This document shows positions 8,437 through 25,555 of a stretch of DNA of 33,341 nucleotides, piece after piece. The notes below the pieces were generated by a model, which was not told the DNA's origin, searched no databases, and saw nothing but the letters and a program-made list of their open reading frames with translations. The position numbers and the translations under genes were made by a program. The DNA comes from an uncultured Synechococcus sp. (GTDB lineage: Bacteria; Cyanobacteriota; Cyanobacteriia; PCC-6307; Cyanobiaceae), in NCBI GenBank assembly GCA_913052185.1, contig CAJXFG010000005.1, positions 1 through 33,341 of the forward strand, read 5' to 3'. Numbering within the stretch: position 1 is the first letter of the stretch; each line of letters starts with the position of its first letter.

Positions 8437-8463
8437 AAGGTCCGCCTGAGGCGGGCCTTTTTT
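8437..8463 (+). terminator. Rho-independent terminator of the peroxiredoxin gene
   Basis: GGTCCGCC-TGA-GGCGGGCC forms an 8-bp GC-rich stem (one G-T pair, extendable by A-T pairs) with a 3-base loop, followed directly by TTTTTT. This is the only textbook intrinsic terminator seen in the window. Its T-run contains the stop codon of the convergent UPF0182 gene (8462-8464). On the minus strand the hairpin has no U-run after it, so it should act in one direction only. Confidence 0.88.
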
Positions 8464-11272
8464 ATTGGGTTTCGCGGGTTTCCAGCTGTCGGCTATCAAG
8501 TAGTTCCTTCAAGCCCGTGTCCAGATCAGCAGCCATAGCAACGCGACGTCCGTCACTGACCACGATTCTCGTCAGTGTGGGCAAGCCCCCTTGCTGAGCT
8601 TTCAAATAAATCGGTTCAACATAAAGAAGCGAATCACCCACCGGAACAACAAGCAGATTTCCTTGCACCACCTGAGATCCAGCGCGGTCCCAAAGAGCAA
8701 ATTGCTGACTGATCTCTGGATTTTGATTAATCAGTGCCTGAACTTGTTCAGGCCCAAAAATAGGGACATCACTTGGAAAACGAAGCAAAATCAGTTCACC
8801 GTAATGTTCACCATCACTGCGAGCCGCAAGCCAGGCTGAAAGATTCGGACGTGCCAGCGGCGTGAGCGGTTGCAACAGCAGAAATTCAGATTGCTGACTG
8901 GGCTTTACCTGGGCTGTGATGTGATACGGGGCCACTGGAACCTGCTTTTGACCGTAAAGCTCCATCGGCACCTGCCAGACATCGTCTCCGCTGTAGAAGA
9001 TGCGCGGATTGGTGACGTGATAACGAAGCAGTTGCTGCACCTGAAGCTCAAACTGTGCCTGAGGCACCATCAAATGTCGTCTGAGGCTGGGTGGCATTTC
9101 ATCCAGCGATTCGAACAAGGAAGGAAACACATTGGTCCATCCTTGAATGATCGGATCCTTCGGCTCGTTGATGTAAAGGTGAACTTTTCCGTTATAGGCA
9201 TCAACGACGGCCTTCACCGAGTTGCGCACATATCGAAGAGGTCGACCATCTGGAAGGGTTGCTGCATAGGGAACGGTCCTCGAGGTTGTGAAGCCCTCAA
9301 CAATCCAGTACTGATGTTGACCTTTCTGATATTCACTGGGAGCATCCTCGATCGGAACCGAGACAAGATAAGGCTCACCCATCAACGTGAGAAAGGGTGC
9401 CAGTGTTCTGACCCTTTCTTTGACATCACGGCGCAGAAGCAGTCGAGATTCCTTGGTGAGAGCACCGGTATTCAGAAAACGTGGATCAGCCAGATAGGTG
9501 GCTGCAGTGACCCGTTGCCAAAGATGTTCAAGCGAGACGCCTCCTGAACCTGAGTAATGGTTGTAGGTGTTGTCATCCCCTTCTGGGTAGTCAAATTCCT
9601 CGATGCGCGTGGGGGCAACTGCGTAAGGCGAAGGTAATGCTCCGAAGTAGAGAGCAGCACGACCTATCGGCACTTCCCGTTCAACATCAGCCTTGGTGAT
9701 GCCTAGTGCTTTGTTTCCTTCAATTCTCGTGGATTGACCTAGATCGCTGATGAAGTAAGCCGGCAGACCATCGGGTTCTCTTGTATTGACAGGATTGAGT
9801 GTGAAACCGAAACCATGCGTGAATACAAAATGGCGGTTTTGCCAGGTTCTGGAGCGTGCAGGAAGAGCCGCTTGATCTAATTCACGAGCAGCGATGATCA
9901 CCTGTTGGTTCTCATTGCTTTTCGCATTCAGTGGATAACGATCAACGGAGGCATTCGCGAATTGGTAGTAAACCCTCAGCTGTTGCAGCTGACGGTTGGA
10001 GGCCAGCATCGGTTGACTGTCCCAGAGCCGGATGTTCTGAAGCGTGCTGGCACCTTTGATCAGATCCTCTTCCGTGATCTCCCGTGTTGGCGTGATGCCA
10101 CGGGCCTTGATCGAATCCAGTTGATAAGCCCGGCGCGTTGCCGAAATTGATCGGCTCAAAAAAGGGGTTTCCAGTTGGAGTTCTCTTGGTCTGACGACCA
10201 TCCACTGGACGATGGGAGCCAACAGAAGTTCCGCCAGTACGGCAGTCACGGCAAGCGTGAACATCGCCGTTCGCAACTGACGCCGATGGCGTGCAGCGAG
10301 CAGAGGCAAAGGCACACACGTCCCGGCCATCAAGACCAGCAGCAGGGCGATCCACTGACGCAGTGGAAGTCTCAGATGAACATCGAGCCAACCAGCCCCT
10401 GCAACCAGACCGCTCTGCGTCCAAAGCAACTGGTGACGCACAAGCCATGTCAGTGAAGCCAGCACCAGCAGCAGAACTGCAAGCACAGGTCTCAGCAAGG
10501 CCCGCTCCTGTGCGTTCCAGCCCGGAAACCCCCAATCACTGAGACAGGGTGAACGCGTCAATCGACTCCAGGCCGAACTGCTCAGAGTCAGAAGGATCTG
10601 TAAAAGCACAAGCTCGAGTGCCAGTGCAATCGCAGAAAAACGCCCCAGTCCGAAACTGAGGTCGGCACCAAGGAGTGGATCCGTGATTCCTGAATCAGGA
10701 ATCGTGATCGCCAGGGCCCAGAGTCCCCAGCTCCTGCCAGCCACTGCACAGATGCAGAGACTTCCATAGAGGAAGGCCAGATTGATGCGACGTCTGCGGC
10801 CGAGCCCCAGTGCGATCAGCAGGATCAGCAGAATGCTGAGACTGAGCACCGACCATTCCGGTTGAAACGGAACGCTCCACCAATGGGCGAGCAGAAACGG
10901 TTGTTTCCATGCCAGCCAAGCCAGCCGAGTCGTGATGCCAAGAACGCTGAGAAGAACCGCGAGGCAGGCGATTAAGGAGAGGGAATAGACGCCTCCCCGA
11001 AGGGAGGGTGTCTCACCGCGGGGTGTGGGCACATAGGCCTGCATCCAGCGCCGTCGCCACCAGGCGTTGATCAACACAAACATCAGTGCCAGAACGGCAC
11101 CAAGCAGCTGATAGGCCAGTCGCTGCTCGTAAATTCCCTGCAGCCCGAACTGAGAGAACCAGGACCATTCCACCTGGAGTCTGGCGACCATCCAGAAGGC
11201 AGGGATCACCAGCAGCAACCAGACCGCTGAGGGACGCGACAGATAGGTAAGGCCCCGTTTGAGCAGGCTCAA
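8462..11272 (-). CDS. UPF0182 family large membrane protein
   Basis: A 936-residue protein of the UPF0182 (COG1615) family, function unknown. About the first 330 residues hold seven or so membrane spans, beginning with [23 protein letters not shown]. The remaining 600 residues form a large, presumably periplasmic, domain with conserved stretches such as [22 protein letters not shown] and [16 protein letters not shown]. The start is a TTG at 11272 that overlaps the ftsH stop as TTGA, so translation is probably coupled to the protease gene. The stop lies in the T-tract of the convergent peroxiredoxin terminator. Length and topology match the family. No enzymatic motif is visible to me. Confidence 0.9.
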
Positions 11273-13149
11273 GCCCCGGCCGGCAACTGATCCAGGCTAG
11301 AGCTCCTGGTGGGTACGTCGAGTCCTGCCAGCTCATGGAACCGCTCGGACTGCAGCGTTTCTTCGTCGATCAGAGCCTCCACCAGTCGATCCATGAGCTG
11401 CCGCCTCGGCTTCAGCAGATCGATGGCCTGTTGCAGTGCCTCCTGGGCCAGTGCACGCACGCGACGGTCAATTTCACGGCCGGTGCTCTCCGCATAGGAC
11501 TGTCGTGGGTTGACCAGATCGCGACCCAGGAAAACCTCCTGGTCCTGGCCCTCAAGCGCAACGGGGCCAAGATCCGAAAATCCGAAACGCGTCACCATTT
11601 CCCGGGCCAGCTGAGAGACCATCTGCAGATCGCCACTCGCTCCCTGCGTCACCTCCGAATCTCCGAAGACAACAATCTCCGCTGCGCGACCCCCCAGGGC
11701 CATCACAAGGCGTGCTCTGAGATAGGCACGTGTCACGAGACCGGAGTCGATGATTTCCTCGTCTGGGAAAAATCGGGTGAAACCTCCGACACCGCCGCTG
11801 CGCGGCAGCAAAGTGACCTTGTCGACGGGGTCGGCGTGGGGCGTGAGTGCTGCCACCAACGCATGGCCAATTTCGTGGTAGGCGATCAGCCGCTTTTTCG
11901 CACCGTCCTGGAGCGGGGCTGCAGTGAGCCCCATGGTGATGCGTTCCAGCGCTTCCTCCAGCTCCCTGTTCCCGAGGCAGGACGCTTCGTGACGAGCCGT
12001 GAGAATCGCGGCTTCGTTAAGGAGATTCGCTAGATCCGCGCCGGAAAAACCAGGGGTTCTGCTCGCCCAGTCAGCCAGAGAAACCTCGTCGGCAAGCGGC
12101 CGCGTTCGAGCATGCACGGCGAGAATCGACTCACGACCGCGGCGATCGGGCAGCCCCACCTGAATGCGTCTGTCGAACCGCCCTGGACGCATCAGCGCCG
12201 TATCCAGCACGTCGGGCCTGTTTGTCGCCGCCAGGAGAATCACACCGGAGTTGTCGGCAAACCCATCCATTTCGGTTAGCAGCTGATTGAGGGTCTGCTC
12301 GCGTTCATCGTTTCCACCACCGATCCCTGCTCCTCTCTGACGACCAACGGCATCGATTTCATCGATGAAAACAATGCAGGGCGCTTTTTCCTTCGCCTTG
12401 CGAAACAGATCTCTGACGCGGCTCGCTCCCACACCGACGAACAATTCAACGAATTCAGAAGCTGCGATCGAAAAGAATGGAACACCTGCCTCACCGGCGA
12501 TGGCCTTCGCCAGCAGAGTTTTGCCCGTTCCAGGCGGACCGACCAACAGAACTCCGCGAGGAATCCGAGCACCAAGCTTGATGAAGGTTTCCGGCTGTTT
12601 CAGGAAGGTGACCACCTCCTGCAGTTCTTCCTTGGCTTCACCGATTCCGGCGACATCTTCAAACCGAACTGTGATGTCGTCCTGAGGGCTTGTTCTGGCC
12701 TGGGTGCGTCCGAAGCCCATCGCTTTGTTGGCCGCCTGTGCCGATCGCCGCAGCAGCAACGAGAGCCCCACAACGATCAGCACGATCAGCGCAAGATTTC
12801 CTGCGAGGCCAGCGAGGGCTTGTTCCTGACGGACATCCTTCACATTCAGGGGCGTTCCTGATGCCTCGGCAACTCTGAGGATCTGCTGATCATTCGCCAG
12901 GACTGGGACCGTGACGGTCCTGCCATCCGGATAGGTCACGATCACCTGTCGGCGAGCAGGAACCAGGACCAGTTCTTTGATGGAACCGGAGGAGATTTCC
13001 TTCAGCAGCTTGCTGTAACTCAGATCCGGTTCACTGCGAAACAGATTGAACGGATTGTTCTGTTGCTCCGCAGGCTTTGACGTGGGCGTTGAAGTTCCCG
13101 GTTCTGACTGGGTCGGCTGCTCTGGGCTCACACCGCTGATGCGTTGCAC
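11269..13149 (-). CDS. ftsH: FtsH-type ATP-dependent zinc metalloprotease with a single membrane span
   Basis: A 626-residue membrane-anchored AAA+ protease. Visible parts are Walker A GPPGTGKT at 204-211, Walker B IVFIDEID near 259-266, the second region of homology [10 protein letters not shown] near 307-316, zinc site HEIGH at 425-429 and the third ligand Asp507 in GASGDLQ, so both activities look intact. Standard FtsH has two membrane spans around a small periplasmic domain. Here the N-terminus ([18 protein letters not shown]) is polar and only one span, about 116-134, is found. Upstream codons run to a stop at 13189-13191 with no hydrophobic stretch and no canonical start codon, so the missing first span is not an annotation error. 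The start is GTG. The gene is divergent from rpmF and coupled to UPF0182. Cyanobacterial FtsH proteins act in photosystem II repair and stress; which paralogue this is I cannot say. Confidence 0.93.
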
Positions 13150-18990: not shown

Positions 18991-19359
18991 GTGACGCGCA
19001 CAGGTCAGCGTTGGTCCTGCTTGGAACAGTGCGGTGCCTGCTGCCGACTGGCACCGGATGAACGCCCGGAGGCGGTAGAGGCACTCGATTCCGCACAGCA
19101 ACAGCAATATCTGTCAATGGTGGGTCCCGATGGGTGGTGCATCCATTTCGACAGCGGTTCAAGGCGTTGTCGCATCTATGAATCGCGTCCTGATTTCTGT
19201 CGAGTCAGCAGCCTCTGCAGCTTGTTCGACATCGACCCCGAGCAGGCGGATCCATTCGCAATCGCCTGCTGCCGGCAGCAGATCCGATCCGTCCATGGCG
19301 GTCGCAGTCGCGAACTGCGTAAGTTCGAACGTCTCATCCGCTCCACGGACCCTCTGTGA
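18991..19359 (+). CDS. YkgJ-family cysteine cluster protein
   Basis: A 122-residue protein with the cysteine pattern of the YkgJ (CxxCxxxxCC) family: CLEQCGACCRL near residue 10, then CIHFD....RCRIYESRPDFCR and a later CC in IACCRQQ. Eight or more cysteines suggest a zinc or iron-sulfur site. The family's function is not settled. The start is a GTG at 18991, following the divergent promoter region shared with psb30. The stop overlaps the first UPF0016 gene as ATGA, so the two are probably expressed together, and a link between the metal-binding protein and a cation transporter is a reasonable guess. It is soluble, with no signal peptide. Confidence 0.85.
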   Translation: MTRTGQRWSCLEQCGACCRLAPDERPEAVEALDSAQQQQYLSMVGPDGWCIHFDSGSRRCRIYESRPDFCRVSSLCSLFDIDPEQADPFAIACCRQQIRSVHGGRSRELRKFERLIRSTDPL

Positions 19360-19688
19360 TGACTGATTCCGGCACCACACAACGTCCTGGTTTCGCGACG
19401 GTCCTGCTGACGACGTTCACAACGGTTTTTCTGGCTGAGCTCGGCGATAAAACCCAGCTGGCCACGCTTCTGCTTTCTGCGCAATCAGGGCAGCCCTGGC
19501 TTGTGTTCAGTGGTGCTGCGCTGGCCTTGATCTGTTCAAGCCTGGTCGGGGTGCTGGTGGGCCGCTGGCTCTCCACGGTGATGCAACCTGAGCGGCTTGA
19601 ACAGATGGCAGGCCTGCTGATGCTTGGTCTCGGACTCTGGCTTGGATCCCAGGCCTTGCAGTCACTGATCTCCGCAAACCCTGTCTGA
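19356..19688 (+). CDS. UPF0016 (TMEM165/GDT1) half-size cation transporter, first copy
   Basis: A 110-residue membrane protein with about three hydrophobic helices and one copy of the family signature ELGDKTQ (FLAELGDKTQLATLLL). Full-length members such as Synechocystis Mnx have about 200 residues and two such motifs in inverted repeats. This is therefore a half transporter that must pair with itself or with the next gene. UPF0016 proteins move Mn2+ or Ca2+ out of the cytosol; in cyanobacteria manganese export across the thylakoid membrane is established for Mnx. The start overlaps the YkgJ-type stop (ATGA), and the second half gene follows 40 bp downstream. Confidence 0.88.
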   Translation: MMTDSGTTQRPGFATVLLTTFTTVFLAELGDKTQLATLLLSAQSGQPWLVFSGAALALICSSLVGVLVGRWLSTVMQPERLEQMAGLLMLGLGLWLGSQALQSLISANPV

Positions 19689-19728
19689 AGGGATCCACTG
19701 ACCGATCTGCCTTGAACGTCTCCACTCC

Positions 19729-20034
19729 ATGAATCTGACCCTGCTTCTCTCCACGTTCGCCACAGTCTTCCTTGCAGAGCTCGGTGACAAGACGCAGTTG
19801 GCAACCGTGGCCATCAGTGGCACCTCCAACAGGCCCTTTGCCGTGTTCGTCGGTTCATCCTCAGCGCTTGTGCTGGCAAGCCTGATCGGTGCCATTGCGG
19901 GTGGTTCCCTCTCGAATGTTGTGCCTGCCGACTGGTTGCAGCTTCTGGCATCGCTTGGATTTCTGGGAATCGGAGTGAAGCTGCTTTGGCCGTTGCTCAG
20001 CGGAACGGAGTCTGCTGCGGCCGCTGACGAGTGA
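19729..20034 (+). CDS. UPF0016 (TMEM165/GDT1) half-size cation transporter, second copy
   Basis: A 101-residue membrane protein with three hydrophobic helices and one FLAELGDKTQLATVAI motif, closely resembling the gene just upstream. The pair looks like a split version of the two-domain manganese exporter, forming a hetero-oligomer of two different halves. The opposed topology expected of such halves cannot be proven by eye. A short tail (SAAAADE) ends the protein. The start is ATG at 19729. A 122-base gap follows before the RNase R-like gene. The metal carried (Mn2+ or Ca2+) is inferred from the family. Confidence 0.88.
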   Translation: MNLTLLLSTFATVFLAELGDKTQLATVAISGTSNRPFAVFVGSSSALVLASLIGAIAGGSLSNVVPADWLQLLASLGFLGIGVKLLWPLLSGTESAAAADE

Positions 20035-20156: not shown

Positions 20157-22526
20157 ATGAAATTCACGGTCGCTGACCTGCTCGATCAGGTGCCTGATGA
20201 GGGCAACCTTGAGACCGCCAAGCTTGAAAAGATCCTCCGACTGACCAATCGTTCAGAGAAACAGTCTCTTGAGCTTGCGCTTCAAGGTCTCAAGCGACTT
20301 GGAATCCTCGATCTCGACAGCGATGGGCTCATTTGCCGAGGTGCTGCCGAGGATCTGGTTGAAGCACGTCTTCGCTGCAGCAGCAAGGGATTCTGTTTTG
20401 CGATCCGCGATGACGGTGGAGATGACATCTACATCCGTGACCACCAGCTCAATCACGCCTGGAACGGCGACCGGGTTCTGGTGAGACTGACACGCGAGGG
20501 CGGCCGTCGCCGATCACCAGAGGGAGGTGTGCAGTGCATTCTTGAACGATCCACCACAAGCCTGCTCGCTGCGGTGGAGCAACAGGATGAAAAGGTTGTT
20601 GCCGTTCCACTTGACGACCGCCTTCTGGCCACGATTGAACTCACCCCTGAGGATGCCAGCCATGCCGAAAAACCCATCGGTGAAGCTGTTGCCGAGGTGG
20701 TGCTGGATCGCTATCCGATCGCACAGTTTCCCGCACAAGGCCACGTCGCACGATCTCTGCCTCTTGACGGAGGTTCTGGAGCAGATCGTGAGTTGATGCT
20801 CACGAAGGCCAACCTTCATCAGCGTCAGACGCCGCCCCGCGCAAGTTTCAAAACTCCATCTCCCAAAAAACGCGAGGATCTCAGCGAACAGCCTGCGCTC
20901 TTGCTCAAAGGTTGGTCAGCCGTTGATGCACCAGCACTTCCGGCTGTTCACGTCATTCCGCATGAGGGGGGAACGCGTCTTTGGATTCACACCCCCGCGA
21001 TCGCCGAGCGTCTGAGCCCCGGAAACAGTTACGACCACTGGCTTCTCGATCAATCGGAAAGCCTTTGTCTCGGCGGACACTGGCTGCCTCTGCTCAGCCC
21101 TTCCCTGGCCAAGGCCAGCACATTTGCAGTCGGTGACGTTCAGGACGCTGTTTCGCTTCGTCTGGATGTGGGTCCTGATGGAGAATGGCGTGACTGGGAG
21201 TTCTGCCTGAGCAGGGTTCGCCCTGTTGCGGAAGTCAAGGCCGAAGCCCTCACGGCCCTTGAATCGCGCAAGCCGAAATCCAGAGCTGTTCCTGCCGCCC
21301 TGAAGCCGATCAAGGACCAGATCGGGCAGCTGGAAACACTGCTCTTCTGTGCCAAAAGTCTTGATGAAGCTGATCGTTCGGAAGGCCGGATCGAACTGAA
21401 TCTCAAGCGTGCTCAGGCTGATGATCTGGGTGACCTCAACACCATTTCGCCGGATGGGGATGGTCAGACCTGGGCAACGCCCCTGACAGTGAGTTGCCCC
21501 AATTCGATTCTCTCCGTGCTGATCCGGCATGCCCATCGTGTTTGGGAAGAACACAGTCGGCAGCTCGGTTTGCCAGCGATTCTTCTTGATGCACCACCGC
21601 CGGATGATTCCGCGCTCAATGACGTTGCCAAAGCTGCTGTGGCGCTGGAGGTGCCCCTCCAGCTGGACGAGGATGGAGGAGCTCCGACCCCTTCCGAACT
21701 GGCACTGGCGCTGGCGACGAGCGACTCAAGTCATGTGCTCAATCTGCAGTTGAGGCAGATCCTGCCGGAGAGTTTCTACCGGGTTTCTGACACCATCAAG
21801 GTTGCCAACCCCGATGGATCTGAGGCGTCACCCAGCGACTCCACCAGCGACCAGAGCGCAGCCGAAGAGGAGTGCAGCAGCGACGCCGAAACGTCTGCTG
21901 AACAACGCTTCATTCCTTGCGCGCCTTGGTGCTGCCCGACCCTGCATCAAGCCGACGTCATCAATCAGCAGGTTCTGTGTCTCCTATTGAACGAAGGGAA
22001 GGACAGGCCAACGGTGCGGCACAAAACCAAGGTGAAACTGGGTGCTAAAGGCGTTGCCACGTCCGTCAGCTGGCCTCTGTTCACGGCCTCTCAGGATCAG
22101 AAAATCCTCGACATGCTCCGTGAACGAACGATTCAGCGTTTGAACGCGCGTCGTCGCCAGGTTGATGAACTCAAACGCGATGTGCTGGCCATGACCAAGG
22201 CCCGCAGTGCAGAGCCAATGTTGGATCAACAGCAGACCGGCGTGATCAGTGGAGTTCAGAGCTACGGATTCTTTGTTGAAATTGCACCATCAATGGTTGA
22301 AGGTCTCGTGCACGTCAGTTCGTTGAATGACGATTGGTATGAGTACCGTTCACGGCAGAATCGTCTCGTTGGTCGCAGAAGCCGCCGCGTCTACCAGTTG
22401 GGTGACAGCGTTGATGTGAAAGTTCTCAAGGTCGATGTGCTCAGAAATCAGATCGATCTTGAAGTGGTTCCGACGACGGCACCTGTATCGGACGATCCCC
22501 TGCCGGTGGCTGTGAGCGAGGAATGA
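20157..22526 (+). CDS. RNase II/R-family protein with degenerate active site (Zam-type)
   Basis: A 789-residue protein laid out like RNase R: N-terminal helix-turn-helix (KLEKILRLTNRSEKQSLELA), cold-shock-like region, RNB core and a strong C-terminal S1 domain from about residue 693 (GVISGVQSYGFFVEI...GLVHVSSLNDDWY). In active enzymes the RNB core has DGEDARDFDDA, whose aspartates hold the catalytic metal. Here the matching stretch (residues 249-262) reads LLLKGWSAVDAPAL, so most ligands are gone. The SPIRRYxD motif is also replaced, by CCPTLHQAD at 592-600. The fold around both is well kept. A Ser/Asp/Glu-rich insertion lies near residues 555-582. I think it belongs to the group named Zam in Synechocystis (acetazolamide resistance), probably RNA-binding but not nucleolytic. 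The ubiX start overlaps its stop (ATGA). Confidence 0.82.
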   Translation: MKFTVADLLDQVPDEGNLETAKLEKILRLTNRSEKQSLELALQGLKRLGILDLDSDGLICRGAAEDLVEARLRCSSKGFCFAIRDDGGDDIYIRDHQLNHAWNGDRVLVRLTREGGRRRSPEGGVQCILERSTTSLLAAVEQQDEKVVAVPLDDRLLATIELTPEDASHAEKPIGEAVAEVVLDRYPIAQFPAQGHVARSLPLDGGSGADRELMLTKANLHQRQTPPRASFKTPSPKKREDLSEQPALLLKGWSAVDAPALPAVHVIPHEGGTRLWIHTPAIAERLSPGNSYDHWLLDQSESLCLGGHWLPLLSPSLAKASTFAVGDVQDAVSLRLDVGPDGEWRDWEFCLSRVRPVAEVKAEALTALESRKPKSRAVPAALKPIKDQIGQLETLLFCAKSLDEADRSEGRIELNLKRAQADDLGDLNTISPDGDGQTWATPLTVSCPNSILSVLIRHAHRVWEEHSRQLGLPAILLDAPPPDDSALNDVAKAAVALEVPLQLDEDGGAPTPSELALALATSDSSHVLNLQLRQILPESFYRVSDTIKVANPDGSEASPSDSTSDQSAAEEECSSDAETSAEQRFIPCAPWCCPTLHQADVINQQVLCLLLNEGKDRPTVRHKTKVKLGAKGVATSVSWPLFTASQDQKILDMLRERTIQRLNARRRQVDELKRDVLAMTKARSAEPMLDQQQTGVISGVQSYGFFVEIAPSMVEGLVHVSSLNDDWYEYRSRQNRLVGRRSRRVYQLGDSVDVKVLKVDVLRNQIDLEVVPTTAPVSDDPLPVAVSEE

Positions 22527-23131
22527 TTCCTTATGTGATCGGCATCAGCGGAGCCTCTGCACAACAGCTGGCTGAACGCACACTGCAGTGGATGCTGCGC
22601 CGCGATCTCAGCGTGCATGTGATCCTCAGCAAGGGAGCTCACGGGGTCTGGCGTGCTGAACGATCGATTTCGGTCCCGGTGGATCCAAAACTTCAGGAGC
22701 GTTTCTGGCGGGAGCGTCTTGGCGTCAATCAGGGTCAACTGGTCTGTCACCGCTGGGACGATCAATCAGCCCTTGTGGCCAGTGGCAGCGTTCTCACCAA
22801 AGGCATGGTGGTTGTGCCCTGTTCCATGGGCACCGTTGGTCGTCTGGCAGCAGGTCTGGCGGGTGACCTGCTCGAACGCTGTGCTGATGTGCACCTGAAG
22901 GAAGCTCGCCCTCTCGTGATTGCACCGCGGGAAATGCCCTGGAACCTGCTTCATCTGCGCAACCTCACCACACTGGCGGAAGCGGGAGCCAGAATTGCAC
23001 CTCCGATCCCAGCCTGGTACACCCAGCCGGAAAGCATCGACGACATGCTCGATTTTCTGGTGATGCGTCTGTTTGATTCTCTGGGCGAATCCCTCACTGA
23101 TCAGAAACGTTGGCAGGGTCCTCAGACATGA
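22523..23131 (+). CDS. ubiX: Flavin prenyltransferase UbiX
   Basis: A 202-residue flavoprotein that prenylates FMN with dimethylallyl phosphate to make the cofactor of UbiD-type decarboxylases, here presumably for plastoquinone synthesis. It shows IGISGASA near the N-terminus (FMN phosphate loop), VVVPCSMGTVGRLAAGLAGDLLERCADVHLKE (family core, shown in part), PLVIAPREMPWNLLHLRNL and PPIPAWYTQP at the end. Length and motif order are standard. It starts within the stop of the RNase R-like gene (ATGA). It ends within the start of the two-TM protein (ATGA), so it is the middle of a tightly coupled set. Confidence 0.94.
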   Translation: MIPYVIGISGASAQQLAERTLQWMLRRDLSVHVILSKGAHGVWRAERSISVPVDPKLQERFWRERLGVNQGQLVCHRWDDQSALVASGSVLTKGMVVVPCSMGTVGRLAAGLAGDLLERCADVHLKEARPLVIAPREMPWNLLHLRNLTTLAEAGARIAPPIPAWYTQPESIDDMLDFLVMRLFDSLGESLTDQKRWQGPQT

Positions 23132-24472: not shown

Positions 24473-25555
24473 ATGGTGCCTCCTACCGCTGTCACAGACG
24501 CGAAATCCGGGAGCTCCGGTGTTGCCGTGAAGGATCCGGTCAAGGACACGATCCTGACGCCGCGCTTCTACACGACGGATTTTGAGGCCATGGCTGACAT
24601 GGATCTCCGGCCCAACGAGGCCGAGCTCGAAGCGATCTGCGAAGAGTTCCGCAAGGACTACAACCGTCATCATTTCGTGCGAAACGATGAATTTGAAGGC
24701 GCAGCCGACAAGCTTGATCCAGAAACTCGTCGAGTGTTCATCGAGTTCCTCGAACAGAGTTGCACCTCTGAATTTTCCGGTTTCCTGCTTTACAAGGAAC
24801 TGAGTCGTCGCATCAAGGCACGCAACCCACTGCTGGCTGAGTGTTTCGCACATATGGCGCGGGACGAAGCCCGACATGCAGGCTTTCTCAACAAGTCAAT
24901 GAGTGATTTCGGGTTGCAACTCGACCTGGGATTTCTGACAGCCAACAAGAAATACACCTTCTTCAAACCCAAATTCATTTTCTACGCCACCTACCTTTCA
25001 GAAAAGATCGGTTACTGGCGATACATTGCTATTTTCAGGCATCTCGAACAACACCCTGAGAGCAAAATCTTCCCAATTTTCAATTTCTTTGAGAATTGGT
25101 GTCAGGACGAGAATCGTCATGGAGATTTCTTCGATGCGCTGATGAAATCTCAGCCCGACACTGTTCGCGGACTGCGTGCACGACTGTGGTGTCGATTCTT
25201 CCTGTTGGCCGTCTTCGCGACGATGTACGTCCGCGACGTCGCTCGCAAGGAGTTTTATGAAGCACTTGGTCTGGATGCCCGCGAATATGACCGCATGGTG
25301 ATCGACAAAACCAACGAAACTTCAGCTCGTGTATTCCCAGTCGTTCTGGACGTGAAAAATCCACGGTTCTATGAGCGCCTGGAAAACATCGTCAACAACA
25401 ATGAATCTCTGGAATCGGTTGACAAGAGTTCCTCACCTGCACCGTTCAAGTTTGTGCGCAAGCTGCCTCACTGGATCGGTAATGGTATTGAGATGGCGTC
25501 TCTGTTCCTGATGTCTCCCGTTCGCAGCGAGAACTATCAGCCCAGTGTGCGCTGA
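24473..25555 (+). CDS. acsF: Mg-protoporphyrin IX monomethyl ester oxidative cyclase
   Basis: A 360-residue diiron enzyme that uses oxygen to close the fifth ring of chlorophyll, making divinyl protochlorophyllide. The motif set is clear: [12 protein letters not shown] near the N-terminus, the first iron ligand helix in [19 protein letters not shown], the [13 protein letters not shown] type motif in [11 protein letters not shown], and the second in [16 protein letters not shown]. Length is normal. The start is ATG at 24473, with a 72-base leader. The stop overlaps the tldD start by one base (TGATG). The partner subunit Ycf54 is encoded 7 kb away in this window. Marine Synechococcus rely on this aerobic route. 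Confidence 0.96.

Follow-up and report, generated by a model that had tools for sequence, protein, structure and literature searches.

A gene of the 33,341-nucleotide window, by which we mean the whole stretch of DNA analysed here (an uncultured Synechococcus sp.; assembly GCA_913052185.1, contig CAJXFG010000005.1), encodes a Zam protein of marine Synechococcus. The explanation that best accounts for its features taken together, and which we consider probable, is that this protein is a dead descendant of RNase R that acts as a redox-gated modulator of RNA turnover.

The pseudo-nuclease part of this explanation is supported and, in substance, has been known since 2022: Zam proteins were described as a clade of their own within the RNB family, lacking the canonical active site and conserved chiefly in their OB-fold domains (Thomas et al. 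2022, PMC9145284). Because Zam has already been described in these terms, our finding carries over to a new lineage what had already been concluded in print. It confirms, over many genomes and for one further lineage, that selection maintains one of the cyanobacterial RNB proteins as a pseudo-nuclease, and this protein often carries an exonuclease annotation. Additionally, three features of the picocyanobacterial proteins—a conserved replacement of the catalytic pocket, an invariant third cysteine (C127), and two lineages that naturally lack C74—allow the published redox-switch model to be put to concrete tests.

The zam gene and its assignment

The zam open reading frame starts with ATG and is uninterrupted by frameshift or break, and its homologues can be aligned with it from residue 1 to the C-terminal end (features are collected in Table 1). 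Pfam places RNB at residues 239–611 (E 2e-30), OB_RNB at 71–126, and S1 at 687–769, and a phmmer match to Bacillus subtilis RNase R begins at residue 18; together with the structural model, these results give the domain order of RNase R (N-terminal helical domain, CSD1, CSD2, RNB, S1). Among solved structures, the RNases R of B. subtilis and Escherichia coli are the best sequence matches. The AlphaFold model, built on an alignment of sixty sequences, has a mean pLDDT of 88.3 and a pTM of 0.87. RNase R also leads its fold matches in the PDB (5xgu, TM 0.82 by target; the top match is 8cdu, RNase R on a 30S intermediate), which include the yeast pseudonuclease Ssd1. The sequence-only reading of this DNA had claimed an intact HTH, RNB, and S1 layout, a strongly RNase R-like S1 part, and a frame without frameshift, and all three claims hold: the Pfam domains, the RNase R alignment, the model, and the fold matches agree with one another, and the best NCBIfam match, to RNase R (TIGR02063), covers residues 657–771.

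Fold, domain order, and S1 sequence are therefore those of RNase R as known from E. coli (Rnr) and B. subtilis, but the window protein has neither the catalytic acids nor the SPIRR motif, and its TIGR02063 score of 167.1 bits lies below the equivalog cut-off of 597.85. Membership in the Zam family was assigned by the published hallmarks and by clade, the Zams of PCC 6803, PCC 7002, and PCC 7120 being compared by description. All the hallmarks listed in PMC9145284 are present: R73, C74, S, S, K77, G, F79, C80, and F81 in loop L12 (the cysteines spaced by 5), W102 in L34, and R117–R119 in L45. In a tree of 69 proteins, from which the two motif regions were left out, the 58 Zam rows fall on one side of a single branch (SH-aLRT 98), with the canonical RNB proteins on the other, and the window protein is nested within the picocyanobacterial clade with support of 100. 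The link to Zam proposed in the sequence-only reading is thereby borne out.

Domain order, the CSD1 cysteine pair, the RNA-contact residues, and the lost site are common to the window protein and published Zam (Sll1910 of Synechocystis PCC 6803 and A1543 of Synechococcus PCC 7002; PMC9145284). The differences are a more complete loss of the site than in most non-picocyanobacterial Zams, conserved replacement residues and the extra invariant C127 on the picocyanobacterial side, and an acidic disordered insertion before the second catalytic motif (motif II). This insertion, too, had been noticed from the letters alone as a lineage feature. The acid-rich stretch between the last core helix and motif II comprises about 30–59 residues in most marine Synechococcus and their relatives and 22–23 residues in most other Zams. 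No other part of the protein evolves as fast: identity is 33–40% between relatives that are 83–84% identical overall, and the stretch is best regarded as a linker of the marine lineage, with no function indicated.

Table 1. Features of zam and its downstream neighbour, in window coordinates.
Feature	Position	Strand	Basis
zam gene, 789 aa, RNase R-like protein, catalytically dead as judged from sequence	20157..22526	+	ORF, Pfam, NCBIfam, homologue alignment, tree
N-terminal helical (winged-helix/HTH-like) domain, aa 1–65	20157..20351	+	Secondary structure of model; phmmer
CSD1 (OB_RNB) domain, aa 66–135	20352..20561	+	Pfam OB_RNB 71–126; dN/dS
Redox cysteine pair C74 and C80, L12 loop, motif RCSSKGFCF (C73/C79 in PCC 7002)	20376..20396	+	Alignment; PMC9145284
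C127, third CSD1 cysteine	20535..20537	+	Conservation counts
CSD2 region, aa 136–235	20562..20861	+	phmmer alignment to RNase R; model
RNB domain, aa 239–611, active site lost	20871..21989	+	Pfam RNB
Replaced metal-ligand motif KGWSAVDAPALPA, aa 251–263, family consensus W-x(5)-P-x-L-P-A	20907..20945	+	Alignment
C304, replacing RNase II Tyr253 (RNA 3'-end clamp)	21066..21068	+	Alignment
Disordered acidic insertion, aa 548–581	21798..21899	+	pLDDT < 50; length and charge by lineage; fast-evolving
Replaced SPIRRYxD motif, CCPTLHQAD, aa 592–600	21930..21956	+	Alignment
S1 domain, aa 686–772	22212..22472	+	Pfam, NCBIfam, phmmer; dN/dS
ubiX-like flavoprotein gene	22523..23131	+	Pfam Flavoprotein

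The lost active site and its replacement

Alignment with E. coli RNase R and RNase II places K251, P259, L261, and P262 of the window protein at the positions of the metal ligands D272, D278, D280, and D281, and L596, C304, and A362 at those of RNase II Arg500, Tyr253, and Tyr313. The roles of these catalytic residues in RNase II are well established. Both motifs had been read correctly by eye, and the loss of metal ligands is real, but the earlier count of three was too low, as all four are replaced. Lacking both the metal-binding acids and SPIRR, the protein is not expected to cleave by the known two-metal mechanism and is, as far as its sequence can tell, catalytically dead.

The genome also encodes a second, 656-aa RNB protein on another contig (C116), and this protein has all four acids (in DAETSDIDDA) and SPIRR, so that the search for another RNB protein with an intact site, which the sequence-only reading had suggested as a check, succeeded. 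Like the cyanobacterial RNase II of the Sll1290 type generally, this copy shares the RNB domain with Zam but has D/D(E)/D/D and SPIRRY, lacks CSSKGFCF, and falls in a separate clade.

None of the sampled Zams retains all four acids. Non-picocyanobacterial Zams have partial sites, with D-A-D-D the most complete and E/x/E/N frequent, and SP[LV]RRY or APLRRY persists in most of them; in every picocyanobacterial Zam examined, both motifs are gone. As this loss is common to 135 distinct picocyanobacterial orthologues, it is not due to chance. The replacements are themselves conserved: W253 (128/135), P259 and L261 (127/135 each), P262 (122/135), and A263 (124/135) in motif I; H278 and E284 (both 135/135) and C304 (115/135) beyond it; and W591 (130/135), H597 (114/135), and N603 and Q604 (both 135/135) in the region of motif II. 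H278 is conserved in other Zams too, but most of the remainder differ there, E284, C304, H597, and N603 among them. The site has been called poorly conserved (PMC9145284), which does not hold for the picocyanobacterial clade.

The gene as a whole is under purifying constraint, with a dN/dS of 0.07–0.09 between the window zam and relatives 83–84% identical to it. By domain, near relatives give 0.01–0.02 for CSD1, 0.02–0.05 for S1, and 0.07–0.14 for RNB (about 0.02 for S1 and 0.07–0.11 for RNB in pairs that include the window gene; up to 0.14 for RNB between two close relatives that belong to a different genus within the family). Conservation across Zams likewise peaks in CSD1 and S1. The assertion that the lost motifs lie in well-kept surroundings is thus right for these two domains but not for the RNB core, which is among the less conserved regions. 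Zam was found in 198 of 200 genomes of the order, the other two being assemblies of 95–96% completeness. What had been called a maintained pseudo-nuclease can accordingly keep that name, given this constraint, the single Zam clade, the intact RNase R fold, the second RNB protein with its full site, and the published work (PMC9145284).

The conserved replacements are most plainly read as the repacking of a pocket that has closed, or they may form a new site. In its stronger form, the latter idea holds that the picocyanobacterial pocket was rebuilt into a functional site, whether by plugging the RNA channel, by taking on a ligand, or by using cysteines for redox chemistry. The conserved residues themselves speak for this, as does the strong selection on both replaced motifs (dN/dS about 0.04–0.10 in measurable pairs), but the packing of a closed pocket may alone explain the conservation, and we regard a rebuilt site as unlikely, if the most serious of the alternatives. 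We also considered whether C304 and C592/C593 are coupled, either through a disulfide or as ligands of a metal. The association appeared strong for C592 (Fisher p about 1e-6) but vanishes when phylogenetically independent pairs are compared, which counts against a rebuilt site, and no coupling is claimed.

Redox cysteines and a proposed role in RNA turnover

In PCC 7002, the CSD1 cysteine pair (C73/C79) is redox-active and required in vivo, and exchange of Cys for Ser phenocopies the deletion; deletion of zam shifts the phycocyanin level, the PSI:PSII ratio, and acetazolamide tolerance (PCC 7002 and PCC 6803; PMC9145284). The first of the two cysteines was published as invariant and essential (PMC9145284). 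Among the 135 picocyanobacterial Zams, however, five have Ser in place of C74 (window 20376–20378; loci L088, L089, and L205–L207) and keep the gene; they come from one genome of one genus and from all four sampled genomes of another. A C74–C80 switch therefore cannot be universal. C80 is never lost in this set, and C127 is Cys in 135/135, against Leu, Val, or Ala in other Zams. From these patterns, a C80–C127 pairing is conceivable. Extending this to a combined proposal, in which the dead picocyanobacterial pocket would have been rebuilt as a conserved Trp/Pro/Cys site and C127 could take the place of C74 as the partner of C80, we arrive at something rather speculative that we would not expect to hold. 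If it did, the C74-less lineages would still have a working redox switch, and Zam would be a redox sensor in which the pairing of cysteines has changed in evolution.

The most likely mechanism is that Zam would be a redox-gated protein that binds RNA or modulates RNase E. The window protein, a descendant of an RNase R-like exonuclease, would now serve as a scaffold binding nucleic acid or protein; the C74–C80 disulfide would switch the CSD1 loop; and Zam would bind RNA and/or RNase E and so, probably, modulate RNA turnover, linking the photosynthetic redox state to RNA decay. Catalytic 3'–5' decay would be the task of the other RNB protein that the genome encodes. The putative role of RNA-binding regulator put forward in the sequence-only reading fits the hypothesis of PMC9145284, which proposes modulation of RNase E by Zam. 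In the same study, PCC 7002 Zam displayed neither nuclease nor RNA-binding activity in vitro, the preparation being prone to aggregation. Further, two publications state that Alr1240 of Anabaena binds and stimulates RNase E (PMC10989914, PMC9145284), and the second equates Alr1240 with Zam.

Alternatively, Zam might act through S1 and CSD1 on the ribosome or on a specific set of mRNAs, independently of RNase E. These two domains are the conserved parts of the protein, the top fold match (8cdu) is RNase R with a 30S intermediate, and the fungal RNB pseudonuclease Ssd1 binds RNA (PMC8097288). Ssd1 lost its active site independently and kept its cold-shock domains, as did Zam, but it derives from eukaryotic Dis3L2 and is a parallel only, the two being kin solely through the RNB family (PMC8097288). 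RNase E, on the other hand, is the sole partner reported for a Zam-like cyanobacterial protein in the sources consulted, and we rate action apart from RNase E as improbable, a little more so than a rebuilt pocket.

The main conflict in the literature is between an active Alr1240 (PMC10989914) and a Zam site that is universally dead (PMC9145284), and the details of picocyanobacterial Zams bear on this choice between an active RNase II and Zam. A review describes Alr1240 as an active RNase II-like enzyme that degrades unstructured RNA (PMC10989914); with the equation of Alr1240 and Zam in PMC9145284, and with the three of four acids plus SP[LV]RRY that some non-picocyanobacterial Zams keep, this would suggest that the window Zam might still be an active exonuclease, working through other acids or a non-canonical site. 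Against this, none of its four ligand positions is acidic, the position of R500 is Leu, and the acids newly conserved in picocyanobacterial Zams (E284, E301, D337, D387, D426, E498) lie spread out over the sequence; moreover, the knock-out data reported for PCC 7002 do not fit nuclease redundancy (PMC9145284). Residual exonuclease activity is thus very improbable. That zam is a decaying pseudogene, as the missing active-site residues might imply, is refuted by a frame that is open over its full length in nearly all relatives and constrained (dN/dS about 0.07–0.09), and by conserved synteny.

Gene neighbourhood

Directly 3' of zam, and overlapping its stop codon by 4 bases in the window, lies the ubiX-like gene. 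It holds this place at 98/98 other picocyanobacterial loci with room downstream, outside two genera, and at 13/20 non-picocyanobacterial loci; the adjacency is gone in a Prochlorococcus-like genus (1.7 Mb) and in the C74-less genus. Just upstream (19356–20034) are two tandem genes for single-domain GDT1 proteins (divalent cation/proton antiporters), an arrangement found at nearly all examined picocyanobacterial zam loci and absent from the examined non-picocyanobacterial ones. Downstream in the same direction is a gene (24473–25555) that we take to be acsF-like, which stays near zam in most picocyanobacterial loci. Farther upstream, on the opposite strand, the window holds a gene for a large UPF0182 protein of 936 aa (8462–11272), adjoined by an FtsH-type AAA/M41 protease gene (11269–13149), also on the minus strand.
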